Virus record (IMG/VR): IMGVR_UViG_3300041409_000548
Coordinates: 1 to 56,707 of that record
Strand: one strand, 5' to 3'
Length of the DNA stretch: 56,707 bases
DNA from: a virus
Made by a program: the position numbers and the translations under genes. A model generated the notes under the pieces. That model searched no databases. It was given only the letters and a program-made list of their open reading frames with translations, and was not told the DNA's origin. This document shows positions 14,596-53,262 of the stretch, piece by piece (the stretch's first letter is position 1; each line of letters starts with the position of its first letter).

Positions 14596-14602
14596 CGCCG
14601 AC

Positions 14603-38933: not shown

Positions 38934-39433
38934 GGTTCCGCCGCACGGTCCTCACCGCGACCTCCGTGCTCCACCGCGGCGAATGGGACGCCCCCGATGT
39001 CCGCCGGTTGAAGCTGCGGACCCTGACGCACCGGTTCGTGCACTGCGCCCTCGAAGACCAACTCGGCCTCATCACCCGGCCCGCCGTCACCTGCGTGTGG
39101 TGCACCGGGTCGGACTGGGACGCCCACGGCGTCCGCACCGACCACGTTGTCCCGGCAGGGTCGCCGGGCGCGCGGATCGTCATCGTCACCCTCACCGCCA
39201 AGGCCCGGCCACTCCGGGCCCAGAACTCAGGAGATCCCGTGTTCAGTAACTACGCCAAGGCCACCGTCGCGTTCCTCGGCGGCGTGTTCGAGGTCATCAA
39301 CGTCGCCGCGCTGCCCGAGTCGTGGCAGCCGTGGATCGCGCCCATCGTCGCCATCGTCACCGTCCTCGGTGTGCGTCAGGTCCCGAACGCCCCCGCACCG
39401 GCCGGACCCGCGGCCGGGCAGTCCGAGTTCTGA
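38930..39433 (+). CDS. Two-part protein: cysteine/histidine domain fused in frame to holin-like segment
   Basis: The 167-residue frame has an N-terminal part (1-103) with 'RFVHCALEDQLG', 'VTCVWCTGSDWDAHG' and 'RTDHVVPAGSPG', features of a degenerate HNH or zinc domain. It continues without a stop into a holin-like membrane segment that has its own start (39239). The full-length form may be made, or the first part may be a gene that lost its stop. The ATG overlaps the preceding stop by 4 bp. Confidence 0.55.
   Translation: MRFRRTVLTATSVLHRGEWDAPDVRRLKLRTLTHRFVHCALEDQLGLITRPAVTCVWCTGSDWDAHGVRTDHVVPAGSPGARIVIVTLTAKARPLRAQNSGDPVFSNYAKATVAFLGGVFEVINVAALPESWQPWIAPIVAIVTVLGVRQVPNAPAPAGPAAGQSEF
39239..39433 (+). 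CDS. Holin-like small membrane protein (internal start)
   Basis: The 64-residue protein starts at a GTG with AGGAG seven bases upstream, inside the longer frame. 'FSNYAKATVAFLGGVFEVIN' and 'WIAPIVAIVTVLGVRQVPNA' resemble the DUF7439/holin-type proteins of actinophages, which normally stand alone at this size. It likely makes pores that release the endolysin. It lies just before a 25-residue membrane peptide gene and the endolysin gene. Confidence 0.72.
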   Translation: MFSNYAKATVAFLGGVFEVINVAALPESWQPWIAPIVAIVTVLGVRQVPNAPAPAGPAAGQSEF

Positions 39434-39447
39434 GAGGAGGTTCCACC

Positions 39448-39525
39448 GTGCTCACCCCTGTGATCGGCCTGCTCCACGGCGTCGTCGTCACCCTCGGCGA
39501 CGTGCTCGCCTTCATCGTGTCGTAG
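39448..39525 (+). CDS. 25-residue membrane peptide
   Basis: A very short frame starts at a GTG with AGAGGAGG eight bases upstream, one of the best ribosome-binding sites in this region. The product is hydrophobic throughout ('VIGLLHGVVVTLGDVLAFIV'). The strong site and the place between the holin-like gene and a terminator-like hairpin argue that it is translated. A role in lysis control is a guess. Confidence 0.55.
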   Translation: MLTPVIGLLHGVVVTLGDVLAFIVS

Positions 39526-39534
39526 CGCCCCACA

Positions 39535-39583
39535 ACACGGCCCGCCCCGTCCCTGCCTGGCGCGGGGGCGGGGCGGGCCGTGT
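39535..39583 (+). terminator. Strong hairpin between lysis membrane genes and endolysin
   Basis: A perfect 15-bp GC-rich stem pairs 39535-39549 with 39569-39583 around a 19-base loop. No T run follows, as is common for actinobacterial terminators. It may reduce transcription of the endolysin gene compared with the structural genes, or shield mRNA from decay. Confidence 0.7.
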
Positions 39584-39607
39584 CCACCGAAAGAGAGGCA
39601 CGCCGCC

Positions 39608-40375
39608 ATGACACGGGAAGCGCCCGCGCTCACCGAGTGCAAGACGCACCTCGACCGGCTCGGCGCCGGATTCCTGGGCATCATCGGCGACGCCCGCCAC
39701 GGCTACGGCTACCACCTGTCCCGCGCCGACATCCGGGCCCGCGGGAACACGGACTACTCCATCACCGGCACGGGCGACACGAACGGGCCGTCGGACACCG
39801 CGTGCGCCCTCGACGTCCGTGTCACCCCCATCAAGAACCTGTTCGGGAAGAAGGTGACCGGCTGGCCGGCGGCGCCCGCGTTCCTGCGGTGGCTGCGTGC
39901 TGAACGCGCGGCGGGTCGGCTGCCGGAGGTCGCGGAGCTGATCGGCGACGCCAAGGGCACCGGTGTGGCCATGTACGCGGCGGATTCCACCGGCTGGAAG
40001 TGGGTCCGGTACACGGGTACGGGTCACGTCGACTGGTTCCACGTGGCGATCTACCGCAGTCAGGCGACCGATTTGACGTTCGCGCGGCGGACCTTCGCTC
40101 TGTGGGACGCGAAGGGACTCATCGAGAAGGAGACCCCCATGGAGCTTCTGCGGAAGCTGATCAGTGCGGTGAACGATCGCGTGTCGCGTGTGTCGTCGTC
40201 GCATCAGCGCACTCAGGCCGCGGTGAACAAGCAGGCGGCCCAGATACGTGTGCTGGATGAGCAGATGGTCGAGGTGCAGGGTCTGTTCAAGTCGATGTCG
40301 GAGTATGCGAGCAACACGAACTCCGAGTTGGTGTTGCTGCAGGGGCGTGTGGAGGCGCTGGAGAACCGGTCCTGA
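39608..40375 (+). CDS. Putative endolysin (M15-like peptidase domain) with coiled-coil tail
   Basis: The 255-residue protein has an N-terminal domain (about 20-160) resembling the M15-type lysins of actinophages: 'DYSITGTGDTNGPSDTACAL' with 'ALDV', and 'TGTGHVDWFHVAIYRS', which supplies possible zinc ligands (Asp, His, His). These enzymes cut peptide bonds of the cell wall. Residues 175-255 form a coiled coil ('LLRKLISAVNDRVSRVSSSH', 'VLDEQMVEVQGLFKSM'), which is unusual for a lysin. It is the last late gene, before a strong terminator. Confidence 0.68.
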   Translation: MTREAPALTECKTHLDRLGAGFLGIIGDARHGYGYHLSRADIRARGNTDYSITGTGDTNGPSDTACALDVRVTPIKNLFGKKVTGWPAAPAFLRWLRAERAAGRLPEVAELIGDAKGTGVAMYAADSTGWKWVRYTGTGHVDWFHVAIYRSQATDLTFARRTFALWDAKGLIEKETPMELLRKLISAVNDRVSRVSSSHQRTQAAVNKQAAQIRVLDEQMVEVQGLFKSMSEYASNTNSELVLLQGRVEALENRS

Positions 40376-40391
40376 CCCCACCTCGCACCGT

Positions 40392-40447
40392 GCACGCAAA
40401 GAGCCCCCCTCGTCCTCTTCGGAGGATGAGGGGGGCTCTTTGCGTGC
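40392..40447. terminator. Bidirectional terminator with UUCG loop
   Basis: A 26-bp stem (one G-T pair) joins 40392-40417 to 40422-40447 around the loop TTCG. The run GCAAAGAG and its complement CTCTTTGC at the stem base give short T stretches on both strands. It separates the end of the late operon from the convergent end of the - strand repressor operon and should stop transcription from both sides. Confidence 0.92.
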
Positions 40448-40455
40448 TGTCCCGT

Positions 40456-40677
40456 TTACCGGACGTCGAGGCCAGTCTTGTCGCGGATCGTCTCGTACGT
40501 CTTCGCGAGCCGGTTCGAACCGGGGTCGGATGCCACGATCGCGATGCCCCCGGGGCCGCTGATGCGCAGGTGCCCCTTGCCAGTCCGGTCTACCGTGCCG
40601 CCCGCCTTGGTGACGGCACGCTCGATGTCGCGGGCCTCCTTGGACCTGCCCCGGCCGGTGCCGCCGCGTGCGCTCAC
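40456..40677 (-). CDS. HicA-like small protein
   Basis: The 73-residue protein has the core of the HicA/dsRBD-like fold: 'IERAVTKAGGTVDRTGKGHL' followed by 'RISGPGGIAIVASD' and a helix 'SNRLAKTYETIRDKTG'. HicA toxins cut mRNA using a conserved His, and 'GKGHL' offers that residue. No HicB partner was found nearby; the upstream GntR-type repressor gene overlaps it by 4 bp, so the pair may form a small operon. Alternatively it is a harmless RNA-binding phage protein. Confidence 0.65.
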   Translation of the reverse strand: MSARGGTGRGRSKEARDIERAVTKAGGTVDRTGKGHLRISGPGGIAIVASDPGSNRLAKTYETIRDKTGLDVR

Positions 40678-41474
40678 GACCCGAGCTCCATCACGTACTG
40701 CAAATCCACCCTGTCCGACGGGATCACGATGTCGCACACCTCCACCACCCGACCCCCCGCCAACATCCGACGCCGCACACACAACACCGGCACACCCTCA
40801 TCGATGTCCAGCTCATCCACCTCATCCAACGCAGGCATCCGCGCCGACACCACCTCCTCCACCGCATCCACCACAACCCCCACCGAATCCAGCTGCGCCA
40901 TCGTCCCCCCCGGCCACGGCTCATTCGCCGGATCCACGATCGGTGTCCCCCCGACATCGCCCATCAGCAGGTAGCTGAACGACCGCCGGTGCGGCTCCAT
41001 CCCCCCGCCCTCATCGAAAAAGAACACGAACGTCCGCCGCAGCAGCGGCGTCAACGGCTCCACCCCGAACGCCCCCGCCAGGTCGTCGTCCGCCCCCACC
41101 ACCGTGGCATGAGCACCCAACTGCCAATCCCGGAACTCGTGCCCATGCGTGAACGGCGCGTCATCACGGGCATCCGCCGGCCGGGACAACTGCGCCCGCT
41201 CGTCTTCGTAGTGCGACGACGCCCGCCGCCGCACCACCCGGTGCGGGCGCACGAACCAGCCCCGGCCCTGCGCCGACGAGATCAGGCCCTCCGACTTGAG
41301 CAGCGTCAACCCCTGCCGCGCGGTCGTCGCCGACACCCCGAACTCCGCCGCCAACGTCTGCTGCGACGGCAGCAGGGCGCCGGGCGGGAACTCCCCGGCG
41401 GTGATGCGTTCGCGGAGCGCGTCGGCGAGTTGCTTGAACGGTGGCCGGTCAGACCTCGGGTTGATGCTCGTCAT
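40674..41474 (-). CDS. GntR-family (UTRA) transcriptional repressor, KorSA-like
   Basis: The 266-residue protein has a GntR winged helix at about 12-75 ('QLADALRERITAGEFPPGAL', 'AEFGVSATTARQGLTLLKSE', 'GRGWFV') and a UTRA-type ligand domain at about 95-260, ending in 'VLCVRRRMLAGGRVVEVCDI'. Repressors of this class (KorSA of pSAM2, KorA/TraR of other plasmids) keep transfer genes silent in actinomycete elements. It is transcribed away from the transfer cluster, with an operator-like palindrome between them, which fits self-regulation and repression of transfer. Confidence 0.88.
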   Translation of the reverse strand: MTSINPRSDRPPFKQLADALRERITAGEFPPGALLPSQQTLAAEFGVSATTARQGLTLLKSEGLISSAQGRGWFVRPHRVVRRRASSHYEDERAQLSRPADARDDAPFTHGHEFRDWQLGAHATVVGADDDLAGAFGVEPLTPLLRRTFVFFFDEGGGMEPHRRSFSYLLMGDVGGTPIVDPANEPWPGGTMAQLDSVGVVVDAVEEVVSARMPALDEVDELDIDEGVPVLCVRRRMLAGGRVVEVCDIVIPSDRVDLQYVMELGS

Positions 41475-41520
41475 CGGCGGGTCCTCTCTGGGCGCGCGTC
41501 AGTAGGTGACGGGAACTTGT

Positions 41521-41540
41521 GCGCCTATTGACATACGCGC
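41521..41540. promoter_or_regulatory. Candidate GntR operator over a -35 element
   Basis: GCGC-CTAT-TGAC-ATAC-GCGC is a near-perfect inverted repeat (outer GCGC and inner TAT/ATA match). It contains TTGACA at 41528-41533, a consensus -35 for rightward transcription. No ideal -10 is seen, the nearest being TCTCAT at 41554-41559, so the spacing is long. Binding here would block the transfer promoter and could control the repressor gene itself. Confidence 0.5.
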
Positions 41541-41597
41541 TTAAGTGGGTGAGTCTCATTGTGGCAGGTGGAGCCGTCGCCCGGAAGGGGCGAGTCG

Positions 41598-41795
41598 ATG
41601 ACCGCAACCGCAGTTCACATCCCGCAGCGCACGTCCGCCCCTTGGTCGGAGGCGTCGCAGCAGCTCGACCGGCTCGTCACGGATGCGTTCCGCCTGCACG
41701 ACGACCACGGGACCGGGACGTGTCCGGTCTGCCACACCAGATTCCCTTGCCCGGTGCTGGTTCGGGCTGACCTGAACCGTTCCCTCCTCACCTAG
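41598..41795 (+). CDS. Small zinc-knuckle protein, first gene of the transfer cluster
   Basis: The 65-residue protein starts at an ATG behind GAAGGGG. It has 'DHGTGTCPVCHTRFPCPV', a three-cysteine zinc-type motif, after a helix 'SEASQQLDRLVTDAFRLHDD'. Proteins like this often come first in actinomycete element operons. A GTG at 41559 in the same frame is a less likely start. Confidence 0.65.
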   Translation: MTATAVHIPQRTSAPWSEASQQLDRLVTDAFRLHDDHGTGTCPVCHTRFPCPVLVRADLNRSLLT

Positions 41796-41804
41796 GAGCC
41801 GACC

Positions 41805-42383
41805 GTGCGTCTGCCCGCGTTCCTCCGCAGGACCGACCCCGAATGGCCTACCGGCCGCGCAGCGCGTCGCGCCCGGCGCAGCTACTTCGCCCGCGAACGC
41901 TCATCCGGGTACGTCCTGGACCAGCTCCTCTCCGCGCTGCCCGACGAGCGGGACGACCTGTACCTCCTGCTCGCCAGCAACGAGCGGGAGTGCGCGGCGC
42001 TGCACGACACCGCGTTCGGCCCGGACGTCCTCACGGACGAGGACGTGGCCGCGGGTGAGTGCACGCTCCCGGCGATGCACGCCTACTCGGCGGCCCTGTT
42101 CTGGCTCCTGGCGGCTGTGGAGGTCCGGGTCGCGGCCGGGGACCGGGTCCCGCCGCCGCTGTCGTGGGCTGGGGTCACCGAGTTCCCCGAGGTGGAGCAG
42201 GCCGCGGCACCCGTGCTCGACCGCATGGTGGCGGCGCCCGAGCGGAGGCTCGACCTGCTGGTGGACCTGCGGCTCGCCGTGTGGGATGTGGTGCCCGGCC
42301 AGGGCGCCGAGGGTCTAGCCGCCGTGACCCCGCCGTGCACCCTGTGGGCGCGGGTTCGCCAGTCGATGACAGAGGCGGCTTGA
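41805..42383 (+). CDS. Hypothetical protein of the transfer cluster
   Basis: The 192-residue, acidic and helical protein starts at a GTG and has 'RAARRARRSYFARERSSGYV' near the N-terminus and 'AYSAALFWLLAAVEVRVAAG' in the middle. No family was recognised. It is spaced 9 bp from the upstream gene and 1 bp from the next, so it is probably co-transcribed. Confidence 0.65.
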   Translation: MRLPAFLRRTDPEWPTGRAARRARRSYFARERSSGYVLDQLLSALPDERDDLYLLLASNERECAALHDTAFGPDVLTDEDVAAGECTLPAMHAYSAALFWLLAAVEVRVAAGDRVPPPLSWAGVTEFPEVEQAAAPVLDRMVAAPERRLDLLVDLRLAVWDVVPGQGAEGLAAVTPPCTLWARVRQSMTEAA

Positions 42384-42384
42384 G

Positions 42385-42642
42385 ATGTCCGCGTTCCGTC
42401 GTCGTGTCGCCGCGCTCCGTCGCGTCGAGGCGCCTCGTCTCCCCGATGTCGCGCTGATCCTCGGCCTCGCGCTCTGCGGGAGCGCTGTGCTGTCGGGTGA
42501 GGATCCGCTGATGTGGGCGGGTGTCGTCCTCCTCGCCACGTTCGGGATCTTCACGCGCCTCTTCCAGTACGTGACCGACCGGGCCGTGACCGCGGAGGCC
42601 CGTGTCGCCGCCCGCGCCGGCCGCCCGTCCGCCGACCTCTAG
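42385..42642 (+). CDS. Small membrane protein of the transfer cluster
   Basis: The 85-residue protein has an Arg-rich N-terminus, two hydrophobic segments ('VALILGLALCGSAVLSG', 'MWAGVVLLATFGIFTRLF') and a helical tail. Small membrane proteins of this kind are common in Spd (spread) clusters of actinomycete plasmids. No closer match was recognised. Confidence 0.62.
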   Translation: MSAFRRRVAALRRVEAPRLPDVALILGLALCGSAVLSGEDPLMWAGVVLLATFGIFTRLFQYVTDRAVTAEARVAARAGRPSADL

Positions 42643-42708
42643 TCGTCCGGCCCCGGCGGTGTGTCCGCACCGGCGTCGGGGCTGGACGCCCAACCTGCAG
42701 GAGAAGAC

Positions 42709-43059
42709 GTGACCGACCTCGACGCGAAGATCCTCGGCCTCCTCATCGGGGGCCGCGACTACCTCGCCCGGCCCGACGTCGAACTGAACCAGGACGGCGG
42801 CTTCTTTGCCGACGACTCCACCAAATGCTGCGGGTTGGGCGCGGTCATGGCGGCTGCGGGATTCCGGCACGTCTGGTCCCTGTACGACGCGACAGGCGTG
42901 CCGTACCGCCTCATCCGCACCGCCCTCGACCGGGCGGTGCCCGAGTCCTCGCCTCACCGGGTGTTCCCCTACTTCAACGACCACATCGCGGAGTCGAAGG
43001 ACGACGTCCTCGCGGTGTTCGACCGGGCGATCGCAGACCTCCGCGCGGCCCAGCTGTGA
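42709..43059 (+). CDS. DUF6197-like protein (copy 1)
   Basis: The 116-residue protein shows the DUF6197 pattern: 'LLIGGRDYLARPDVELNQDG', a Cys pair in 'TKCCGLGAVMAAAG', and 'YFNDHIAESKDDVLAVFDRA' near the end. A paralogue at 52888-53262 shares the last segment almost exactly, also in DNA. The GTG at 42709 has CAGGAGAAG upstream; the in-frame GTG at 42661 is less well placed. The function is unknown. Confidence 0.75.
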   Translation: MTDLDAKILGLLIGGRDYLARPDVELNQDGGFFADDSTKCCGLGAVMAAAGFRHVWSLYDATGVPYRLIRTALDRAVPESSPHRVFPYFNDHIAESKDDVLAVFDRAIADLRAAQL

Positions 43060-43805
43060 CCGCCGGACGTGGCTGGGCGTACACCGGCGTCGCGCTCGGC
43101 GCCGTCACATCCGTCGCCGCGAACATCGCCCACTCCTACGTGCCACCGGCCGGATCGACCTCGGACTTCACCCCGCCCACCGGCTCGGTCATCAGCGCCG
43201 TGTTCTGGCCCGTCGCCCTCGTCGTCGGCATCGAAGTCCTCGCCCGCGCCGCGTGGCCAGCCGAAGCACGCTGGCTGTGGCTCCGCTACGGCGGCCTCGT
43301 CCCCGTGGCCACGGTGGCCGCCGTCGTGTCGTACCTCCACATGTCCGGCCTCCTGGCGTACTACGGCGAGTCGAAGGTGGCCGTCATCCTGGGGCCGCTC
43401 GCGGTCGACGGGCTGATGGTGATGGCCACCGGCGCGCTCATCGCCACCTCGCCGGCCCGGCACCGGACCGCGGTGGCCGGCGGCATGCCCGCACGGGGGG
43501 ACGTGGCCACACCGCCGCCCGTGGCGATCACGGTGCCGGGTCCCGGCACGCTACCTGTGGCCACCCCGGCGCCGGTAGTGGCCACGTCCGAGCCCTGGGT
43601 GGCCACGGAGCCTGAGCCGGTGGCCACGCCGCGGCCAGCCATCCCGGTCACCGACATGGAGAAGGCGGCCAGGGTGGCCGCCGCGAAGGCGAGTGGCCTG
43701 TCGCAGAAAGCCACGGCCGAAGAGACGGGGATCCCGCGGACCACGGTGCGCCGGTACTGGGACACGCCGCACCTGACCGCCGTCCCGAAGGAGGACGCCC
43801 GGTGA
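43056..43805 (+). CDS. DUF2637 / Spd-like membrane protein with C-terminal helix-turn-helix
   Basis: The 249-residue protein has four membrane segments in residues 1-130 ('YTGVALGAVTSVAANIAHSY', 'VISAVFWPVALVVGIEVLAR', 'GGLVPVATVAAVVSYLHMSG', 'LGPLAVDGLMVMATGALIAT'), the DUF2637 pattern of actinomycete elements. A Pro-rich linker with repeated 'VAT' units (150-195) follows, then a helix-turn-helix ('ASGLSQKATAEETGIPRTTV'). Spd-type proteins help transferred DNA spread across septa of mycelium. The DNA encoding the linker carries regularly spaced palindromes. Confidence 0.78.
   Translation: MTAGRGWAYTGVALGAVTSVAANIAHSYVPPAGSTSDFTPPTGSVISAVFWPVALVVGIEVLARAAWPAEARWLWLRYGGLVPVATVAAVVSYLHMSGLLAYYGESKVAVILGPLAVDGLMVMATGALIATSPARHRTAVAGGMPARGDVATPPPVAITVPGPGTLPVATPAPVVATSEPWVATEPEPVATPRPAIPVTDMEKAARVAAAKASGLSQKATAEETGIPRTTVRRYWDTPHLTAVPKEDAR
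43305..43627 (+). repeat. GTGGCCAC palindrome array
   Basis: The exact 8-bp palindrome GTGGCCAC occurs at 43305-43312, 43503-43510, 43557-43564, 43578-43585, 43599-43606 and 43620-43627. The last four start exactly 21 bp apart, two turns of the DNA helix, so they face the same side. In protein they encode 'VAT' units of a linker. Short repeats recognised by the FtsK-like TraB (TRS in clt) are the transfer sites of Streptomyces plasmids, so this is a candidate transfer or partition site. Confidence 0.55.
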
Positions 43806-44026
43806 GCCGCGTCATCACCGACGAGTTCGGCCGGCCCCTCAGCGGGCGCCACACGCTGGCCGAGGAAGCCGCGCTCCGCGCCGGCTTCGTGGAACGGATC
43901 CGGGCCCAGTACCCGGAGCGTTCGGACGACTGGGTGCGGACGTACGCCGAGTACGAACTCGCGATCGAACTGAACAAGCCACCGGCCGCGCCGCGGCAGC
44001 GGCGAGAGGGAGAAGACCTGACATGA
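43802..44026 (+). CDS. Small hypothetical protein of the transfer cluster
   Basis: The 74-residue, charged protein starts at a GTGA overlap. It has 'HTLAEEAALRAGFVERIRAQ' and 'DDWVRTYAEYELAIELNKPP'. It is predicted helical and was not assigned to a family. It overlaps both neighbours by 4 bp. Confidence 0.62.
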   Translation: MSRVITDEFGRPLSGRHTLAEEAALRAGFVERIRAQYPERSDDWVRTYAEYELAIELNKPPAAPRQRREGEDLT

Positions 44027-44208
44027 AGATCCGGCTCCGCAAGTCGATCCCCGTTCTCCCGTTCCTGCGGCTGAACCTGTCCAACTCCGGCATGTCGTGG
44101 ACGTTCCACGCCGGGCCGCTGTCGTACAACACGCGGCGTCGCCGCGGCCGGGCCGACCTGCCGGGCCCGTTCAGCGCGGAAACCGACCGCATCGGAGACG
44201 ACCGGTGA
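44023..44208 (+). CDS. DUF4236-like protein
   Basis: The 61-residue protein begins 'MKIRLRKSIPVLPFLRLNLS' followed by 'NSGMSWTFHAGPLSYNT', the pattern of the DUF4236 N-terminal domain ('RLNLSKSG'). The family is widespread and of unknown function. It overlaps both neighbours by 4 bp. Confidence 0.72.
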   Translation: MKIRLRKSIPVLPFLRLNLSNSGMSWTFHAGPLSYNTRRRRGRADLPGPFSAETDRIGDDR

Positions 44209-44495
44209 CCACCACCGACGCCAAGACCCTCGCCGAGCAGGTCAAGATCCTGCTCCGCAACAACGGCTACACCCTCACCGACAGGTTCCACGTCGACATG
44301 GGCGTCTTCGTCGAGGCCACCGGGATGCCCGGCTGCGCCAAGGTCACCCTCCCGTTCGGGGACGTCGGGTACCGCACGCAGATCAAGCGGGACCTGACCG
44401 CGCTGCTCCGCGGCACGGGCTACACCGTCGCCGCGGGCGGTTTCAGCCTCTCGACTTGCCTGTACGTCCGGGACGGCGCTGGCGGCGACCTGTGA
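44205..44495 (+). CDS. Hypothetical protein of the transfer cluster
   Basis: The 96-residue protein starts at a GTGA overlap. It contains two similar halves around 'LAEQVKILLRNNGYTLTDRF' and 'DLTALLRGTGYTVAAGGF', each a helix, 'GYT' and a strand, so it may be an internal duplication. No family was recognised. Confidence 0.6.
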   Translation: MTTTDAKTLAEQVKILLRNNGYTLTDRFHVDMGVFVEATGMPGCAKVTLPFGDVGYRTQIKRDLTALLRGTGYTVAAGGFSLSTCLYVRDGAGGDL

Positions 44496-44517
44496 ACACC
44501 GCCGCCCCCTTGCCGAA

Positions 44518-44634
44518 CGTCACCCACAGTGTCATCCTCGCGCGCCCGCGCGCGTACCCGTGCGCGTCTGGGCGTTGGACCCGGGCGCGGGTGCCACACC
44601 GGGTGTCACTGTCACTGCCACCGTCACCCACAGT
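44518..44634 (+). repeat. Gap with direct repeat CGTCACCCACAGT
   Basis: The 13-bp sequence occurs at 44518-44530 and 44622-44634, and a related GTCACTGTCAC lies just before the second copy. Between them is a stretch of alternating C and G (44539-44567). The 153-bp gap (44496-44648) divides the transfer cluster, so it may hold a promoter or a binding site for the genes from 44649, which include the translocase. Confidence 0.5.
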
Positions 44635-44648
44635 CACGGAGAACCGCC

Positions 44649-44912
44649 ATGGGCAAAGCTAAGGACTACCTCGTCCGGCTGTACCTCGACGGCTTCGAGC
44701 AGGTCGAGGAGGCGCACAGCCTCGACACCGGCAACGACAACGAGCTCGCCTCGACGCTCCGGCAGATGGTCCGCCGCGTCCGCAACGACAACCGGCTGTC
44801 CGACCGGGAGTACTCCCGGTACGTCATCCACGTGCACGAGGACAGGTCGGGCCGGTACCTGGCCGCGCGCTGCTGGGTGTCGTCGACCGGGGCCGTGCGG
44901 GTGAAGCGGTGA
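44649..44912 (+). CDS. Hypothetical protein of the transfer cluster
   Basis: The 87-residue protein starts at the ATG at 44649 behind CGGAGAA. It has 'MGKAKDYLVRLYLDGFEQVE', a basic helix 'TLRQMVRRVRNDNRLSDREY' and a β-rich end. A small mixed fold that could bind nucleic acid is plausible; no family was recognised. Confidence 0.62.
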   Translation: MGKAKDYLVRLYLDGFEQVEEAHSLDTGNDNELASTLRQMVRRVRNDNRLSDREYSRYVIHVHEDRSGRYLAARCWVSSTGAVRVKR

Positions 44913-45115
44913 CGTCGAACCGGCAGCGGGCCAAGGCCCAGCGCCGCGCCGAGTTCTGGGCGCAGAAGTTCACGCAGGTGCCCGACCCCAAGGGCCGGGC
45001 CGTCGTCGCGTTCGAGCGGCTCCGCGCCACCGTCCCGGCCCACGACCAGGCGTGGACCGAACTGGAGACCACGTTCACCCGGCTCGTCGAGCAGAGAGAG
45101 AGGGCCCGCGCATGA
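44909..45115 (+). CDS. Small basic helical protein
   Basis: The 68-residue protein is very basic at its start ('MTSNRQRAKAQRRAEFWAQK') and helical throughout. It starts at a GTGA overlap and ends in an ATGA overlap with the membrane protein gene. No family was recognised. Confidence 0.6.
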   Translation: MTSNRQRAKAQRRAEFWAQKFTQVPDPKGRAVVAFERLRATVPAHDQAWTELETTFTRLVEQRERARA

Positions 45116-45555
45116 GCGTCGGGCAGGGAATTTCCGCATCGGCGGGGCTGAGCGCCCTCGTCGTCGCCGGGATCATGTGGTTCATCGTCGGCCGGTGGCA
45201 GCCCCGGTACGTCGTCCTCCTCATCGTCGCCGGGATGGCCGGCCTCGCCGGGTCCGGGTTCGGCCAGGGGCTGCACCGCGGCGCGGGGTACGTCGACGGC
45301 AAGGTGTCCGTCGTCGTCGGGCAGTACACGGGCGCCACGATCGTCGGCCTCGTCGCGCTGATCACGCTCGCGGCGGTCACTGTCGGGGTGTTGAAGAACA
45401 AGGTGAGCGGGCGGACACTCGTCGCCGCCCTGGTCCTGCCCGCGGTCGTGACGATGATCCCGGGGGTGTTCGGTCAGGTGGCCACGGCCACCGTGAGCGC
45501 CCTGGCGTCCGGGGTGGGCATGGGCATCGGCGTCCTGTTCGGTGCGGGGGGCTGA
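45112..45555 (+). CDS. Multi-pass membrane protein, SpdB-like
   Basis: The 147-residue protein has four or five hydrophobic segments ('LSALVVAGIMWFIVG', 'YVVLLIVAGMAGLAGSGFG', 'GATIVGLVALITLAAVTVGV', 'LVAALVLPAVVTMIPGVFG'). A polytopic membrane protein one gene before the FtsK-type translocase is the usual place of SpdB in Streptomyces plasmids, where it helps the DNA cross mycelial septa. Similarity is by layout, not by a clear motif. Confidence 0.65.
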   Translation: MSVGQGISASAGLSALVVAGIMWFIVGRWQPRYVVLLIVAGMAGLAGSGFGQGLHRGAGYVDGKVSVVVGQYTGATIVGLVALITLAAVTVGVLKNKVSGRTLVAALVLPAVVTMIPGVFGQVATATVSALASGVGMGIGVLFGAGG

Positions 45556-45558
45556 CCG

Positions 45559-46407
45559 GTGGAACTTCTCATCTTGTTCATCGCCGCCGCGTACGGCCTG
45601 GGCCGCGGTGTGGAGGACGGTGTCGGTGAGGTCCGCGCGTTGTGGCGGGGCGCGCGGGACGCGCACGTGCAGCGCCGCGGCCACCGCCAGACACTCCGCG
45701 GGGGTGGCCGCGGAGGGGTGACCACCCCCGCGGGACCCGGTCGTGGCCACGGCACCGGCCGCAGGGTGGCCAAGGGCGCCGCGGCCACCCTGCACGGCAC
45801 GGCGGCCGCCGCCCGTGCGGCCAACTCGGTCCGCCGGGAGTTCACGGCCGGATGGCGTCGGGGGTGGCCGGAAGGCAAGGAACGCGGCGCCGCGTGGCTC
45901 GGCCGCCAGATGGCCACCCCCGACGTCGACCCCGCACCGGCCACGGACCCCAGCCTGCGCCCGGCCACCCTCGAACCGCGGCCACCCCAGCCACCCACCA
46001 ACCAGCCCACCACCGCACAGAGGAGCGCACCCATGACCACCACCCACACCGAGATCACCAGCATCCCCGCCTACATGCGGGAGTTGGAGGACGACATCAA
46101 GCGGTCCGCGTCGGAGATCGAAGACGCGCAGGCCGGCGCGCAGCGCGCCGCGCAGGACGTCGCGCACATCGACGCCGTGTCCGCGTCCCTCGCGGCCATG
46201 AAGCTCGACCCGGCGACCCTCGCGGAGACCGCCGCACGGCTGGAAACCAAGCTGGCCCGGCGGCAGGCACACCTGGCGCTGCTCGCGGCGGTCGAGGCCG
46301 AGGACGGCGCCAACCAGCAGGCGCTACAGGGCATCCAGGCCAGGCACGGCGCGATCCTCGAGCACGCCGACGTCGTCGCCGACCGCGCCGCCTACCAGGA
46401 CTCCTGA
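45559..46407 (+). CDS. Transfer-associated protein: membrane/basic part plus coiled coil
   Basis: The 282-residue frame has a short hydrophobic start ('MELLILFIAAAYGLGRG'), a basic Gly/Arg/Ala-rich region (40-130), a Pro/Thr-rich linker and a coiled coil (160-282). The coiled coil has its own start at 46033 with a strong ribosome-binding site. The basic part could bind DNA. Its DNA contains more GGCCAC half-palindromes and one full GTGGCCAC (45743-45750). Confidence 0.62.
   Translation: MELLILFIAAAYGLGRGVEDGVGEVRALWRGARDAHVQRRGHRQTLRGGGRGGVTTPAGPGRGHGTGRRVAKGAAATLHGTAAAARAANSVRREFTAGWRRGWPEGKERGAAWLGRQMATPDVDPAPATDPSLRPATLEPRPPQPPTNQPTTAQRSAPMTTTHTEITSIPAYMRELEDDIKRSASEIEDAQAGAQRAAQDVAHIDAVSASLAAMKLDPATLAETAARLETKLARRQAHLALLAAVEAEDGANQQALQGIQARHGAILEHADVVADRAAYQDS
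46033..46407 (+). CDS. Coiled-coil protein from internal start
   Basis: An ATG preceded by GAGGAG at a good distance opens a 124-residue product in the same frame as the longer gene. It contains 'EITSIPAYMRELEDDIKRSA', 'SEIEDAQAGAQRAAQDVAHI' and 'LAETAARLETKLARRQAHLA', a long coiled coil. Proteins of this shape and size stand alone before translocase genes in other actinomycete elements, so this may be the main product. Confidence 0.6.
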   Translation: MTTTHTEITSIPAYMRELEDDIKRSASEIEDAQAGAQRAAQDVAHIDAVSASLAAMKLDPATLAETAARLETKLARRQAHLALLAAVEAEDGANQQALQGIQARHGAILEHADVVADRAAYQDS

Positions 46408-46409
46408 CC

Positions 46410-48527
46410 GTGGGCCGCCGCACCGCGCCACCGACAGCGTGGCCCCCGAAACGGGGCCACCTGTCCCTCGTGCCGCCCATCCTCGCCGCGCCCCGCGACC
46501 GCCTCGAATGGAAGGCGTACCAGCGGGAGATGGCGGAGATGGCGCGGCAGGGCGCGGCGTGGCGGCGCACCTGGCGCGGCATCCGGCGGCTGTGCCGCTT
46601 CGGATGGGCACACCGCCGCGGCCTCGCCCCCCTGTACCTCGCCGTCGCCATGGAAATCAGCGGCGCCGTCCTGTCCACCGCCGAGAAGGGGTACGCCACC
46701 GTCCTCGCCATCTCCACCGTGCTGGCACCCGTCCTCGTCCGCCGCCTCCACCGCTGGCCGGCGCGGTTCCCGTGGGAACCCGCGTCGAAGACACCACGCA
46801 AGCCCGTGCCGCGGCGCCAAGCCGTGTGGGTGTGGACCCTGTTCGCCGCCGTCACCGCGTGGCTCACCGCCGCCGCGAACACCGGCGCAGGGCCGCCGAT
46901 GCCCGGGTTCCTGCTCATCGGCTTCATCGTGTGGAGCCTCGGATGGTGGAGCCACCACCGCATCCGCCCCCGCACCGCCGACGACCCCCGCGTGCAGCTG
47001 TGGGGCGACTACGTGGCCTGCACCGACGGGCCGCTACCGAAAGCCGTCCTCCACGACGTGCTCCCCATCACCGCCGCGCAGTACGCCGCCGGAGCCCAAG
47101 CCGTCGGCGTCACCACAGGCGGCGGCACCTCCGAGCCGATCGGCTGGACCGGCACCAGTTCCCTGCCACCCGGCAAGAACACCGCCACCCGGGCGATGGC
47201 GAAAGTCGAAGACGTGGCGTCCGCGTTCTCCCTCGACGCGCAGTCCGTCGTCCTCGAACCGGTCGACCCGCCGCGCGCCGACCGGGTCAAGGTGTCCGTG
47301 TACGAACACAACCCGCTGCGGAACGTGCTGCCGTGGCCGGGGCCGCACCTGTTCGACCCGGAGACGGGGATCGTGCCCGTCGCTCTGTACCAGGACGGGC
47401 AGCACGCCCTGTACCGGTACTACCGGCGCGGGTCCGGCCCCGTCCATGACCTCATCGCGGGCACAACCGACGCCGGCAAGTCGCGGCTCCTGGACATGTT
47501 CCTCGCGATCGAACGCCACAACTGGATGGTGTCGTTCGTCATCGACCCGCAGGAAGGCGCGTCCCTCCCGGTGTGGAAGGACCAGCCGGACGGGAGCCGC
47601 GCTGTCCACGGCTACGCCCGGAACGTCACCGAAGGCCTCTCGCTGCTGAAAGCCATCTACGCGGAGATGAAGGCCCGGAACCGGTTCATGGCGAACTACG
47701 AATGGACCGACGAGAAGGGCCGCACCCGCTACGGCCTCGACCACTTCGACCCGGCGTTCTGGGCGACGAGGGAAGATCCGGCGGACCGGCTCTGCCTGCT
47801 GTGCCTGACGATCGACGAGTCCCACGAACTCCTGAACGAGCCGTCCGGGCAGGGGAAGGGCCGCGCGGAAGACATCGGGAAGATGGCCCGCAAGTGCGGC
47901 ATCAAGCTTCGGCTTGTCACGCACGTTCCGACGCTGGACCAGCTCGGCGGGTCGGGCACCCTGCGGGACATGGTGAAGTCGCAGGTCGTGGTGCTCCGCA
48001 CGGGCACGCCCCTCGTGGGGCAGGTCGCTTTCTCGGGGCGCCTCCCGGTGGACCCGGTCAGTATCCCGATCGAGTTCCCCGACCGTTCGTCAACAGCCGG
48101 CATGGGCTACATCCTGGGCCCGGGGGCGCGGCCGGCGCCGGTGCGGACGTGGCTGGTGGAGGACGCGACGCATTGGGCGACGACGGGATCACTGACGCCG
48201 TTCACGCCGCTGTCGCCGGAGCTCGCCGCGTGGATGGGCGGGGCGCGGGGCGCCGGCCAGCGGGGGGCGCCTGTGGCGGTGTCGCAGCCGCCGGTGGGGG
48301 TTCCGGCGCCGCGGACGGCGAAGCAGCAGGTCGCGGAGTATCTGCGGCTTCGTGGCACGCAGGTGGGGCGGCAGGTGATCGTGAGGGAGTTGGGGATCGA
48401 GGCGACGCAGGTGTCTCGGGCGTTGCGGGAGCTGGGTGAGGAGGGGTTGGTGCATCAGCCTGATTGCCGGCCGGGTATGTGGGCGGCGGGTCCGGGTGTC
48501 GAATCCGCAACAGAGGTGCCGGTGTGA
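46410..48527 (+). CDS. FtsK/SpoIIIE-type DNA translocase (plasmid transfer protein)
   Basis: The 705-residue protein has hydrophobic segments within residues 70-180, then an FtsK-type motor with Walker A 'LIAGTTDAGKSRLL' (about 348-361) and Walker B 'CLTIDESHELL' (about 464-475), 'KMARKCGIKLRLVTHVP', and a C-terminal winged helix (about 639-695, 'QQVAEYLRLRGTQVGRQVIV', 'ATQVSRALRELGEEGLVHQP'). Proteins of this plan are the single transfer pump of actinomycete elements, moving double-stranded DNA between cells; the C-terminal domain recognises short repeats in clt. It is far larger than needed for virion packaging and has no standard role in a phage. Confidence 0.88.
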   Translation: MGRRTAPPTAWPPKRGHLSLVPPILAAPRDRLEWKAYQREMAEMARQGAAWRRTWRGIRRLCRFGWAHRRGLAPLYLAVAMEISGAVLSTAEKGYATVLAISTVLAPVLVRRLHRWPARFPWEPASKTPRKPVPRRQAVWVWTLFAAVTAWLTAAANTGAGPPMPGFLLIGFIVWSLGWWSHHRIRPRTADDPRVQLWGDYVACTDGPLPKAVLHDVLPITAAQYAAGAQAVGVTTGGGTSEPIGWTGTSSLPPGKNTATRAMAKVEDVASAFSLDAQSVVLEPVDPPRADRVKVSVYEHNPLRNVLPWPGPHLFDPETGIVPVALYQDGQHALYRYYRRGSGPVHDLIAGTTDAGKSRLLDMFLAIERHNWMVSFVIDPQEGASLPVWKDQPDGSRAVHGYARNVTEGLSLLKAIYAEMKARNRFMANYEWTDEKGRTRYGLDHFDPAFWATREDPADRLCLLCLTIDESHELLNEPSGQGKGRAEDIGKMARKCGIKLRLVTHVPTLDQLGGSGTLRDMVKSQVVVLRTGTPLVGQVAFSGRLPVDPVSIPIEFPDRSSTAGMGYILGPGARPAPVRTWLVEDATHWATTGSLTPFTPLSPELAAWMGGARGAGQRGAPVAVSQPPVGVPAPRTAKQQVAEYLRLRGTQVGRQVIVRELGIEATQVSRALRELGEEGLVHQPDCRPGMWAAGPGVESATEVPV

Positions 48528-48543
48528 GCCGTCGACCCGGTCG

Positions 48544-49977
48544 TCACGCCTTCCACGTGATGTCGACCGCCGCCGGATCGAAATAGGCGCCGCCCGGCAG
48601 GCGGCCCCGCCGCCCCGGCAGGATCGTCACCGTCACCAACGCATCCACCACCCCACGACGCCGATCCAAATCCAACCCCGCCCACACCGACCCCACATCA
48701 GGCACACCAGCCACCACCGACAGAGCCGAACGCTGCGACACCCGCGCGATCCGATCCTGCACCGCCTCCAACCGGGCATGCAGATCCCGCGACCCCGCCG
48801 CGAACTGCCTCGCATCGATCGCCGGGTTCTCACCCGCGAACAACCCCGCCAACTCGTCCAGCCGAGTCCGCAACACCTGAGCCTGCGTATGCAGAGCCGT
48901 CGTATCCGGCCGCTGATCCCCAGCCGCCAGCAGGCCCGCCGCGTCCGCCCGCCCCAGACGCGCCAACACGGCGCGCGTCACGAACCCGTCCACCGCCGCC
49001 GCATCCCGGTACACATGCCCACGAGTCGGCCGGCACCGGTACCCCGGCTTGTGAACCCCACTCCCCGTCGTCGTGGACGACACCAGCATCGGCGCCCCGC
49101 ACACCCCGCACACGTACAGCCCCGACCCCAGCCACCTACGCCCAGCCGGAGGCGACGTCCGCCGCGCCGGATCCCCCAACAGGGAACACAAAGCCCGCCA
49201 CGTGTCCTCCGTCAAAATCGCAGGCCACTTCGCCGCACCGATCACACTCTTCTGGTGCTGCCGCAAACCGGCGTTCCTCGGCCGCACCAGGACCCGCCCC
49301 ACCTCCCTCGGCGCCCACGCCCGTCCCGTCGACGTCGTCACCCCGCGGGCGTTCAGGTCCGCCGCGATCCGGCGCAGCGACCCGCCCGACAGGACGATGT
49401 CCGCCGCCGCGGCGATGACCGCCGCCTCCGACTCGACCACCGTGACACCGTCCGCCGCGTACCCGAACGGTCGCCGGCCGCCGCGCCACTCCCCGTCCGC
49501 CGCCAGTTCCAGGCTCTTGCGTTTGAGGCGTTCACGCTGGTGATCCACTTCGTACCTGGCGACCGCGCCGAGCAGGCGGGCTTGGAGCCATCCGGCGGGG
49601 GTGGTGTAGTCGATGAGCCCCGCTTTCACGGTCTGGGTGACGACACCGCGTTTCTCGCAGAGGGCCCCGTACTCTTCGGGTTCGACGATGGAGCGGTGCA
49701 GGCGGTCGGTGTGCCAGACGAGGACACCGCTGTAGCGGCCGGCGTCGATGTCGGCGAGGAGCCGCCGGTAGCCGGGGCGGGGTTTGCCGCTGTAGGCGGA
49801 CAGGTCGTTGTCGACGTAGACGTCGGTGACGTGCCAGCCGAGTTTGGCGGCGAGTTCGCGGCAGTCGGCTTCTTGGCGTTCGACGCCGAGGCCCGCACCT
49901 TCCCGGTCGCGGGAGATGCGGGCGTAGATCGCGGCGGGAATCGCGGGGATCGGTGTGCCCGGCGTCTGCTCGCTCAC
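48544..49977 (-). CDS. int: Serine integrase (large serine recombinase)
   Basis: The 477-residue enzyme has a resolvase N-terminal domain with the nucleophile Ser22 in 'IYARISRDREGAGLGVERQE', followed by 'DNDLSAYSGKPRPGYRRLLA' and 'VWHTDRLHRS'. A recombinase domain ('GGRRPFGYAADG', 'SGGSLRRIAADLNARGVTTS') and a zinc ribbon ('GLYVCGVCGAPM') follow, then a coiled coil. It would integrate the circular genome at attB and, with the excisionase-like protein, excise it. Its end lies 16 bp from the convergent translocase stop, so no attP fits downstream of it. Confidence 0.93.
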   Translation of the reverse strand: MSEQTPGTPIPAIPAAIYARISRDREGAGLGVERQEADCRELAAKLGWHVTDVYVDNDLSAYSGKPRPGYRRLLADIDAGRYSGVLVWHTDRLHRSIVEPEEYGALCEKRGVVTQTVKAGLIDYTTPAGWLQARLLGAVARYEVDHQRERLKRKSLELAADGEWRGGRRPFGYAADGVTVVESEAAVIAAAADIVLSGGSLRRIAADLNARGVTTSTGRAWAPREVGRVLVRPRNAGLRQHQKSVIGAAKWPAILTEDTWRALCSLLGDPARRTSPPAGRRWLGSGLYVCGVCGAPMLVSSTTTGSGVHKPGYRCRPTRGHVYRDAAAVDGFVTRAVLARLGRADAAGLLAAGDQRPDTTALHTQAQVLRTRLDELAGLFAGENPAIDARQFAAGSRDLHARLEAVQDRIARVSQRSALSVVAGVPDVGSVWAGLDLDRRRGVVDALVTVTILPGRRGRLPGGAYFDPAAVDITWKA

Positions 49978-50363
49978 GGAGTGGTCTCACGGAAGCACAG
50001 GCGGCACCGATCCTCGGGCGCGGGCAGCTCAGCGGGCACCCGCTCCATCTCGCCGGCATACCTGTGGCAGCGCGTCCAGATCGGATCGGTCACGACGAGC
50101 AGGTGCGCCTTGCCGCGCTTCGGGTGACGCGCCGCCTCCGCCGCGCCCGCCGGGTCGGTTCCGGGGCCGTGGCGGCGCGCCTGTCTGGCGTTGTCGCGCT
50201 CTCGCTCTGCCTTCACCACGAGGGCGGAGAGAGACGCCACCTCGGCACGCAGATCAGTGACCTCGGCCCCAAGTATTTCCTCGCGCGCCGCATCCCACGC
50301 GTACCGCCGGAAGGCCGGGGCCGGAATCGCCTCGTTGATCCGGGCGGCCCCCTCGGGGTTCAC
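49974..50363 (-). CDS. Coiled-coil protein upstream of the integrase gene
   Basis: The 129-residue protein has a central coiled coil ('EILGAEVTDLRAEVASLSAL') and a C-terminal Cys/His motif ('TRCHRYAGEMERVPAELPAP' then 'DRCRLCFRE'). It starts at a GTG overlapping the upstream stop and its own end overlaps the integrase start. It is probably transcribed together with the integrase. The function is unknown. Confidence 0.65.
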   Translation of the reverse strand: MNPEGAARINEAIPAPAFRRYAWDAAREEILGAEVTDLRAEVASLSALVVKAERERDNARQARRHGPGTDPAGAAEAARHPKRGKAHLLVVTDPIWTRCHRYAGEMERVPAELPAPEDRCRLCFRETTP

Positions 50364-50545
50364 GAGGTGGCCTCGGCCGACGACGCCTTGCCGCGCCGGT
50401 AACCGAGTACCAGGCCGCGCAGGTAGCCGAGTACCAGCGTCAGAGCCATCGGGAACGGGACCGCCAGCGGTCCCGCCAGTGCCACCGCCGCGATCCCGAG
50501 GATGGCAAAGACGACAAACGCGTGCCAGACCGTCGCCGCGCTCAC
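50360..50545 (-). CDS. Small two-pass membrane protein
   Basis: The 61-residue protein has two hydrophobic segments ('AFVVFAILGIAAVALAGPLA', 'PMALTLVLGYLRGLVLGY') and a charged tail. It overlaps both neighbours by 4 bp in the integrase operon. No function is known. Confidence 0.62.
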   Translation of the reverse strand: MSAATVWHAFVVFAILGIAAVALAGPLAVPFPMALTLVLGYLRGLVLGYRRGKASSAEATS

Positions 50546-51024
50546 GGGGTGGCCTCACGACGGTGCTCATCCGCGGATGCGTCAGCGCTGTCGAAGTCCT
50601 CGTAGCCCGTCGCCTCTTCCCGGCAGCCCGGCACGGCCGCTGCCTCGCGGAGAGCCTTCTCGGCGCCGCGCTGCTCGGCCACCGCGAGCTCGCCGCGCAG
50701 ACGCTCGATCTCGGCGTTGGCCTCAAGCAACTCCATGGCCTTGGCGCCGAGCACGTGGTGCGCTTTCTCCACCTCGGCGCGCAGGCGAGAAACCTCGGCA
50801 TGGATGGCGTCACGCGGCTCGGCCGCCCCCTCGCTCCCACGGATGGCCTGCGTGAGCAGTTCCTCCACCGGTCCGTGCGGGTGCCACCCGCAGTGCGACT
50901 CGTGCGGCCACCCGCCGCCGCCGACGCAGGTGCAGCCGCCGACGTGCTCGACCAGGTAGCCGTTCATCACATCGAAGCGCGGCGGCTCGGTGGTCGGAGG
51001 TGTGCCCGGTGTCTGCTCGTCCAT
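50542..51024 (-). CDS. Zinc-binding and coiled-coil protein, first gene of the integrase operon
   Basis: The 160-residue protein starts at an ATG behind AAGGGA. It has a metal-type motif ('VEHVGGCTCVGGGGWPHESH' then 'CGWHPHGP') and a coiled coil ('EVSRLRAEVEKAHHVLGAKA', 'NAEIERLRGELAVAEQRGAE'). The plan, with 'EQTPGTP' at the N-terminus and a Glu/Arg coiled coil, partly echoes the two following genes. The promoter should lie at the palindrome 32 bp upstream. Confidence 0.65.
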   Translation of the reverse strand: MDEQTPGTPPTTEPPRFDVMNGYLVEHVGGCTCVGGGGWPHESHCGWHPHGPVEELLTQAIRGSEGAAEPRDAIHAEVSRLRAEVEKAHHVLGAKAMELLEANAEIERLRGELAVAEQRGAEKALREAAAVPGCREEATGYEDFDSADASADEHRREATP

Positions 51025-51055
51025 GACAGTCCCTTCAAGCGGCGTAAGGAAGTAT

Positions 51056-51097
51056 GTCACACCTTGACATTCGCGATCGCGAATGTCAAGGTGTGAC
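51056..51097. promoter_or_regulatory. Perfect 42-bp palindrome between divergent genes
   Basis: The two 21-bp arms (51056-51076 and 51077-51097) are exact complements with no loop. Each holds TTGACA (51064-51069 on +; 51084-51089 on -), and the centre is TTCGCGATCGCGAA. It lies between the integrase operon (-) and the gene at 51264 (+). The likeliest role is a symmetrical operator with paired -35 elements, so one dimer or tetramer could shut both directions; no clear -10 is seen. Alternatives are a cruciform-based replication or resolution site. Directional attP is unlikely, because a perfect palindrome has no polarity. Confidence 0.8.
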
Positions 51098-51263
51098 GCG
51101 TCTACAGACAGCAACCGTCACCCTGAGGGGACGGGCGATCAACACGCGGCGACCTTCGATCGTGAGCTGCGTTGCCCGCAAACCTCCCACCGCGCGACGC
51201 CTGTGACGCATGATGGAAACCGACGCGCAACGCCGGGACACCCCGGCCACGAGAGGCGGACCC

Positions 51264-51596
51264 ATGACCCGGACCCCAGCGCAACTCCCCACCTGCCCCG
51301 ACTGGTGCCAGCTCGCGGCAGGCGACCCCGGGCACGGCCACAACGACAACGACGAACACGCCCACGAACGATCCATCGGCACCGTCACCCTCCGCGGCAA
51401 CGACGGCACCGAAGAAGTCTGGGTGTCCGTCCGCCGCTACACGTCGCCCGGCGGCACCGACACCAAGCCGCCCGCCGTCGTCATCACCCGCGTCCGCCCC
51501 ACCGGACCCATCGAAGTCCGGATCACCGACGCGGGCGGCATGCGGGCACTCGCCGAAGCCATCGTCGCCGCCACCGACTTCCTCGAAAGCCTCTAG
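51264..51596 (+). CDS. DUF6907-like protein
   Basis: The 110-residue protein has the family start 'LPTCPDWCQLAAGDPGHGHN', a 'CPxWC' motif, then 'EERS/HERSIGTVTLRG' and an all-β middle ('EEVWVSVRRYTSPGG'), closing with 'GMRALAEAIVAATDFLESL'. DUF6907 proteins are common in actinomycete elements; the role is unknown. The ATG has GAGAGGCGG upstream; an earlier ATG at 51210 is less likely. It is transcribed away from the palindrome. Confidence 0.72.
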   Translation: MTRTPAQLPTCPDWCQLAAGDPGHGHNDNDEHAHERSIGTVTLRGNDGTEEVWVSVRRYTSPGGTDTKPPAVVITRVRPTGPIEVRITDAGGMRALAEAIVAATDFLESL

Positions 51597-51654
51597 ACGC
51601 CAAGCCCACGGCGGGTGCCGGGTTCCGCGTCACCAGCCGACATGAACTTTCGGC

Positions 51655-52050
51655 TCACCCGCGCCCGTTGAGTCGCTCATCCGACCTGGCGACTTCCTCG
51701 AGCATCCGCAGCACCACGTCCATCACCGCCCGCTGCCACGACGCGTCCACGCCCGCCATCGCGGCGACGACCGCGAGCTGCTCGGTGTTGAGGGACGACA
51801 CGGGTGGCTCCTGCCCGGCGGCCAGGAGCGCGTACCGCTGGACCGCGGCGAGGGGCCGTCCGAGGCCGGATGCGATGGCCTGCAGGATCTCCGTCGGTGG
51901 AAGCCGCGTCATGTCGTTGCGGAGCCACCTGCCGAGCTGGACGTCGCTTATGCCGCCGTCACGGGCGACCTGAGCTAGTGACTTGCTGCCTTTCTCTTGC
52001 TCGACGTACTGGCCTAGCGCGTTGTAGCGCGACTCCGCACCCGTGGTCAT
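51655..52050 (-). CDS. XRE-like repressor candidate
   Basis: The 131-residue protein has a helix-turn-helix of the Cro/CI type at about 24-62 ('SLAQVARDGGISDVQLGRWL', 'LPPTEILQAIASGLGRP') and a helical C-terminal region that may form dimers. It is transcribed divergently from the excisionase-like gene across a 144-bp control region. It is the best candidate for the immunity repressor of the early operon. Confidence 0.8.
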   Translation of the reverse strand: MTTGAESRYNALGQYVEQEKGSKSLAQVARDGGISDVQLGRWLRNDMTRLPPTEILQAIASGLGRPLAAVQRYALLAAGQEPPVSSLNTEQLAVVAAMAGVDASWQRAVMDVVLRMLEEVARSDERLNGRG

Positions 52051-52648: not shown

Positions 52649-52891
52649 ATGCCCGACCAGACGATCCGCTTCGCGGAGGTCAAGCACATCGCCATCAAGT
52701 CGGTCCCGTGCGAGGTGTGCGGGAAAAAGGTTCGCCGTCAGCAGACGTTCTGGCAGACGCTCAACCCGTTCAACAAGAACGCCAGCGGCTTCCCGAAGGA
52801 TGCCTCCGAGATCCGGGCCGAGCTTCGTGTCGTTGCGGCCGAGTGGGAGCAGCAGCCCGAGCGGCACGCCCGCTGCGAGGTGCAGTCGTGA
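52649..52891 (+). CDS. Zinc-knuckle protein
   Basis: The 80-residue protein contains 'VPCEVCGKKVRRQQTFWQTL' and ends 'ERHARCEVQS', so a CxxC and a His/Cys pair could hold zinc. The 68-bp gap before it holds a weak GC-rich inverted pattern but no convincing terminator. No family was recognised. Confidence 0.62.
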   Translation: MPDQTIRFAEVKHIAIKSVPCEVCGKKVRRQQTFWQTLNPFNKNASGFPKDASEIRAELRVVAAEWEQQPERHARCEVQS

Positions 52892-53262
52892 CCGCCCCCG
52901 CGTCCGGCGACAAGGTCCTCGACCTGCTCGTGGCGGGCCGCGAGTACTTCGCAACGCACGAGTGGAACCGGGACGGCACCTACTTTGCGGGCACTCCGTT
53001 CCGCCCGGACGTCAGCACCTGCTGCGCCGTCGGCGCGGTGCTGGCCGCCGCGGGGGCCGACAGCGAGTCCGGCTTCGTGCGCGCGACGGAGATCCACCCG
53101 TCCGACATCAGCGACGCGCTGTACGAGGCACTGACGCCCGAGCAGAGGTACGTCCCGGGCAACTTCTACTACTTCAACGACTTCATCGCGGAGTCGAAGG
53201 ACGAGATCCTCGCGGTGTTCGACCGGGCCATCGAGGCCCGCAAGTCGGCGGTGCAGTCGTGA
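52888..53262 (+). CDS. DUF6197-like protein (copy 2)
   Basis: The 124-residue protein has the pattern 'LLVAGREYFATHEWNRDGTY', 'DVSTCCAVGAVLAAAG' and 'YYFNDFIAESKDEILAVFDR'. It is the closest relative of the 42709-43059 product; a 59-bp stretch near the end is nearly identical in DNA. It starts at a GTGA overlap. Confidence 0.75.
   Translation: MTAPASGDKVLDLLVAGREYFATHEWNRDGTYFAGTPFRPDVSTCCAVGAVLAAAGADSESGFVRATEIHPSDISDALYEALTPEQRYVPGNFYYFNDFIAESKDEILAVFDRAIEARKSAVQS

Follow-up and report, generated by a model that had tools for sequence, protein, structure and literature searches.

Phages and conjugative elements generally count as distinct kinds of mobile DNA. In Streptomyces plasmids and in actinomycete conjugative elements of the AICE type, one FtsK-like Tra protein binds a transfer site, clt, and moves double-stranded DNA (PMC3218068, PMC9513070), the AICE translocase gene being the transfer gene (PMC3218068), and Spd proteins spread the transferred DNA (PMC4170104). 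A phage that also conjugates has a precedent in pZL12, a Streptomyces plasmid-phage described in 2010 (cited in PMC3583192), whose conjugal transfer is reported to need tra and two adjacent genes (PMC3583192). A second plasmid-phage, PhiNon1 of Nonomuraea, occurs both as a circle and integrated (PMC5431353). Here we analyse the 56,707-bp IMG/VR record IMGVR_UViG_3300041409_000548 (the window, in full) from a virus whose host type is a Streptomyces-like bacterium. We conclude, with a probability of roughly 0.7, that it is a temperate, chromosome-integrating actinophage with a captured TraB/Spd-type module for double-stranded DNA transfer from an actinomycete conjugative element. Gene identities, homology, synteny, repeated exchange and a shared noncoding element are the observations behind this reading.

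Like the window, pZL12 (phage ZL12, GQ919031) combines virion genes, a GntR regulator and an FtsK-type transfer gene in one genome, but it is extrachromosomal and carries ParAB. Its translocase has no detectable blastp homology to that of the window, and the two phage bodies are unrelated apart from two weak protein matches; we considered pZL12 as a direct relative and set it aside, neither its FtsK nor its phage genes being close. PhiNon1 (NZ_LT559120) resembles the window in having a gene in the DUF2637 position followed in order by small, transmembrane, ~400-aa and FtsK genes. In PhiNon1 the first of these does encode DUF2637, and the translocase is 29% identical to that of the window (E 3e-28), whereas the side genes cannot be aligned by blastp and the phage body is different. 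What is new relative to pZL12 is chromosomal integration by a serine integrase, a module of the AICE type and a shared cis-element.

A temperate phage genome with a conjugation-type module

The first and last 69 bases of the window are identical, and we therefore regard the genome as a closed circle. It holds about 100 genes by a codon-based gene call, among them TerL, portal, MCP and tail genes, an integrase and a phage DnaB-like helicase, the parts expected of a temperate tailed phage. None of the phages in the annotated collection matched the stretch from 22 to 46 kb at the DNA level. The initial annotation had placed a conjugation-type module between the late operon and the integrase of a complete phage circle, and both the position and the circle held up, as did the head, tail and packaging genes; its lysis genes were assigned from gene order and transmembrane segments only. 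Within the module, a GntR/UTRA gene in a KorSA-like position is divergent from an operon that ends in the translocase gene (Table 1).

Table 1. Features of the 56,707-bp window, with positions numbered from its first base.
Position	Strand	Feature	Evidence or remark
1-69 = 56639-56707		69-bp direct repeat	exact match
16615-40375	+	late operon	PHROGs
16615; 18202; 19388; 20376 (starts)	+	TerL; portal; protease; MCP	PHROGs
30364; 32452; 35193 (starts)	+	tail protein; tape measure; tail/tip	PHROGs
about 38222-40375	+	lysis region	gene order and TM segments only
40392-40447		26-bp inverted repeat (96%), likely bidirectional terminator	between late operon and GntR unit
40456-40677	-	73-aa protein	phrog_2089 (function not assigned there), E 2.5e-5; downstream of and co-directional with GntR
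40674-41474	-	GntR/UTRA repressor	Pfam GntR E 2e-19, UTRA E 9e-10
41805-44495	+	first part of operon, hypothetical genes	gene call, Pfam
42709-43059	+	DUF6197 protein	domain match
43056-43805	+	hydrophobic protein, weak C-terminal HTH	position of DUF2637 genes
44023-44208	+	DUF4236 protein	domain match
44496-44648	-	candidate clt, 153 bp	five GTGAC and (CG)n inverted repeat
44649-44912	+	87-aa protein	gene call
44909-45115	+	68-aa protein	AICE 73-aa homologue 40%, E 1e-5; plasmid 90-aa E 4e-3
45112-45555	+	five-TM protein, Spd-like by position	five predicted TM segments; AICE homologue 36%, E 3e-20
45559-46407	+	282-aa coiled-coil protein, hydrophobic N terminus, helical C-terminal half	AICE homologue 30%, E 3e-16
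46410-48527	+	705-aa FtsK/TraB-type DNA translocase	N-terminal TM domain, RecA-like motor, C-terminal winged helix
48544-49977	-	large serine integrase (Resolvase, Recombinase, Zn ribbon)	Pfam
51056-51097		42-bp perfect palindrome, GTCACACCTTGACATTCGCGATCGCGAATGTCAAGGTGTGAC	upstream of integrase operon, promoter region
51655-52050	-	HTH_3 repressor-like protein	domain match

The translocase had been read from its letters as an FtsK/SpoIIIE protein with a C-terminal winged helix, and searches agree with that reading. Its Pfam FtsK_SpoIIIE match (E 5e-5, 23.3 bits) falls just under the cut-off of 24, the best Foldseek match of its predicted model is an FtsK motor on double-stranded DNA (E 4e-13), and a profile search of solved structures returned FtsK and C-terminal winged-helix domains. 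Walker A (GTTDAGKS) and Walker B (LTIDES) motifs are present. With a mean pLDDT of 55 the model is of low confidence, and we use it for the order of parts only: four N-terminal hydrophobic helices (residues 70-184), a RecA-type motor and a winged-helix-like segment (637-677). An FtsK/SpoIIIE-type Tra protein, as AICEs have, is thus present, if with a Pfam score marginally under cut-off, and the low-confidence model suggests the TraB-type plan of one membrane-anchored FtsK-like ATPase with a C-terminal winged helix.

The side genes match the annotated parts list less evenly. The predicted GntR/UTRA repressor is confirmed by both Pfam domains and is 31% identical both to the GntR protein of another phage, G052 (E 2e-22), and to a plasmid GntR (E 2e-15). 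The putative DUF2637 membrane protein is not upheld: the Pfam match has E 0.92, and a profile of the DUF2637 proteins of related modules misses it. The SpdB-like polytopic protein does have five predicted transmembrane segments, but it matches none of the Spd families of Pfam or NCBIfam; it belongs to a five-TM family found in the same place of plasmid and AICE modules. Profiles of the five-TM and coiled-coil families built without the window hit, within it, these two genes alone (E 2e-20 and 2e-27).

Beside the module, the 73-aa gene, for which phrog_2089 was the sole match, overlaps the end of the GntR gene, and its product resembles, by eye, a HicA-type toxin. The 42-bp palindrome is a candidate operator or attP.

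Homologous modules in AICE-type elements and linear plasmids

AICE-type elements from Streptomyces albidus, Streptomyces sp. WMMB 322, S. abyssalis and an IMG isolate encode the closest relatives of the translocase, which are 43-48% identical to it along the full length; blastp gives 43-44% across ~670 aa (E 1e-139 to 1e-143). The gene order of these elements is Nudix, XRE (both named from sequence by eye), GntR, HTH, DUF2637 (E 5e-38), 73-aa, five-TM, ~306-aa, FtsK, DnaB_N/DUF3987 Rep and tyrosine integrase, so that the three genes before the translocase stand in the same order as in the window. Like the window, these elements have a GntR gene and, in the gap before the five-TM gene, GTGAC copies with a (CG)n stem in the same orientation. 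Unlike it, they have their own DUF2637, a DnaB_N/DUF3987 Rep and a tyrosine integrase; the window instead encodes a serine integrase along with a complete virion gene set, and we saw no virion genes in the three 21.8-kb AICE-type genome loci that were fetched.

Streptomyces linear plasmids (NZ_CP109321, NZ_CP119148, NZ_CP106800, NZ_CP108729) hold the second-nearest translocases, more distant than the AICE ones at 31-38% identity. They share with the window the order GntR, DUF2637-position gene, 90-aa, five-TM/155-aa, coiled-coil and FtsK-winged-helix, but differ in WhiB genes, an extra 128-aa gene and a cis-element that faces the other way with respect to the operon. The family is rare, with a close member in 4 of 296 Streptomyces genomes. 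Searching viral_contigs with the translocase alone gave no relatives; an alignment as query gave three.

The AICE link proposed from the sequence alone therefore stands for the translocase and its three neighbours, which are closest, and in order, to Streptomyces AICE-type elements and linear plasmids. It does not extend to a pSAM2-like parts list: besides the unsupported DUF2637, neither Prim-Pol, DUF3987 Rep nor a TrwC-type relaxase (the search covered TrwC/MOBF) was found in the window. Because the replication-protein part of the AICE definition, covered in part (the RepAM search had no working control), was not found, we do not file the window as an AICE. ParB_N likewise gave no match in the window, which thus has no Par/Rep maintenance genes of the pZL12 type among those searched for.

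A candidate transfer site common to plasmids, AICEs and phages

The operon consists of nearly overlapping genes, and its sole large gap lies just ahead of the 87-aa gene. Read on the minus strand, an alternating (CG)n inverted repeat ending GCGCGCGAGGAT separates the first GTGAC copies of this gap from a further one. In the plasmid loci and in G052 the gap before the five-TM gene holds four GTGAC copies, mostly as CTGTGAC, followed by a stem ending GCGCGCGAG, and AICE gaps hold the stem with one or two copies. A simple scan for the combination of GTGAC and stem matched the 56.7-kb window once, at this gap. When a nucleotide profile trained solely on the plasmids and G052 was run against a further 550 kb, the window gap ranked first (E 0.02), and six of the profile's seven top matches were module gaps (window, G051, two AICE-type loci, a plasmid and PhiNon1), against one for a reversed model and zero or one for shuffled columns. 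Most of the signal comes from the stem, the E-values are weak singly, and the element was recognised post hoc. Its repeats are not significant in the window gap by themselves and become visible only by comparison across modules; a GTGAC-triplet pattern alone is not specific, with at least 120 matching stretches in viral_contigs.

The arrangement recalls described clt loci such as that of pWTY27, with four TGACACC copies and inverted repeats (PMC3583192), in that direct repeats and an inverted repeat lie beside transfer genes. TRS octamers of the known kind (GACCCGGA and similar) occur here and there in the window without clustering. The element has the AICE orientation in the window, opposite to that in the plasmids, and because it is kept in both orientations it is more probably a DNA site than an RNA structure. 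We propose the gap as a candidate clt, a noncoding element common to plasmids, AICEs and phages; this shared element is new here, and for a clade of AICEs and linear plasmids it points to a specific candidate for the transfer site.

Possible routes of spread

Its homologues, gene order and cis-element lead us to expect that the module of the window works like the Tra systems of plasmids and AICEs. The GntR/UTRA protein would repress the divergent transfer operon, and the serine integrase would excise the phage DNA, which would then circularise. If the module is expressed, the translocase could form a hexameric membrane pump whose winged helix would recognise the candidate clt, driving the phage circle, as double-stranded DNA, across the cell envelope into the next hypha, with the five-TM and coiled-coil proteins aiding the crossing of septa. 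Virion production would provide a second route, and by analogy with pZL12 the phage may move by both. We found no transfer assay on any member of this module in the literature. If it does have two routes, such a temperate phage could persist where free virions fail, for example in soil mycelium.

Might the module instead serve spread within one mycelium, carrying excised or prophage DNA across septa into compartments and spores and stabilising it there, rather than transfer between mycelia? We consider this unlikely, though it deserves weight: in hosts that grow as mycelium it is difficult to tell Spd functions from plasmid stability (PMC4170104), conservation next to the pump extends to the five-TM and 282-aa genes, and ParB is missing from the genes found in the window. 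Its closest homologues, however, belong to AICE-type elements that integrate themselves and have the translocase gene as their transfer gene (PMC3218068), and the clt-like site travels with the module. The DNA might pass between mycelia, across the septa of one mycelium, or both.

Repeated exchange of the module

The module is also present in at least three other, unrelated phages: G051, G052 and PhiNon1. In G051, a 24.5-kb virus record, it is followed by TerL (phrog_38), an SPP1-type portal (phrog_104) and capsid genes; in G052, a 65.7-kb virus record from an isolate genome, it lies upstream of a full head-tail-lysis set with TerL phrog_9/19179 and portal phrog_104. The packaging genes of both belong to other families than those of the window. 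In the translocase tree, whose long branches limit exact placement, the window protein stands beside the AICE sequences (support 85/87), G051 branches off at the base of the plasmid clade, and G052 falls within that clade. Constraining all three phage translocases to one clade is rejected (p-AU 5e-72), as is a clade of the window and G051 (p 7e-4). The module has therefore been exchanged repeatedly, and the tree does not agree with one capture event in a common phage ancestor. The deposited G052 translocase gene is broken once by a frameshift, which suggests that selection for module function is not uniform.

Relatives of the window by TerL or MCP tell which partner was the recipient. An FtsK domain was detected in 2 of 49, many of these records being fragments, and the two, G002 and G005, have FtsK types other than that of the window. 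With its relatives mostly lacking FtsK or carrying other types, we favour a phage that gained the module over the reverse, an AICE that gained virion genes, which the initial annotation had left open. That annotation had also asked whether relatives of the translocase are confined to phages; they are not, the closest being in AICE-type elements and the next in linear plasmids.

The existence of a separate phage FtsK-like clade (Streptomyces phage Gilgamesh, G002 and G005; support 100/99), and the filing of phrog_1358 as a host-takeover gene, would suit a phage-dedicated factor for packaging, segregation or host takeover; we judge this very improbable, since the tree places the window protein beside AICE translocases and not in that clade, FtsK is scarce among the TerL/MCP relatives, fragmentary as many are, and the phage has its own TerL. 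An assembly artefact joining an AICE or plasmid fragment to a phage, conceivable for a metagenome record, is scarcely credible against the closed circle with its 69-bp repeat, a G+C content that is even along the genome (0.68-0.73 across 40-50 kb) and the same module-phage adjacency in G051, G052 and PhiNon1, the module adjoining packaging genes in G051 and G052 as independent records.

We thus return to a phage with a captured transfer module. Since the same cluster occurs in at least three other unrelated phages, some bacterial viruses may also spread from hypha to hypha without particles. The odds seem to us about even that these genomes form a recurrent class of integrating actinophages with two routes, virions and a TraB-type mycelial transfer that has its own conserved cis site, and that several unrelated phage lineages each acquired the module independently. 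A fourth module phage, IMGVR_UViG_2524614578_000002, was considered and rejected; it seems to be a prophage (5-28 kb) joined to an adjacent AICE (37.5-53 kb), and the two have separate integrases.

Two small proteins of the window, the DUF6197 protein and one at 52888-53262, look alike by eye. Among the TerL/MCP relatives, the 56.7-kb phage record G002 encodes a 587-aa FtsK at 12327-14983 (Pfam E 2e-13) beside a four-TM protein. G005 is a circular 83.6-kb phage with a 118-bp end repeat and a TerL 49% identical to that of the window; at 32-43 kb it has its own cluster of GntR, many small transmembrane proteins and a different, 753-aa FtsK, which is likely a second type of transfer module.
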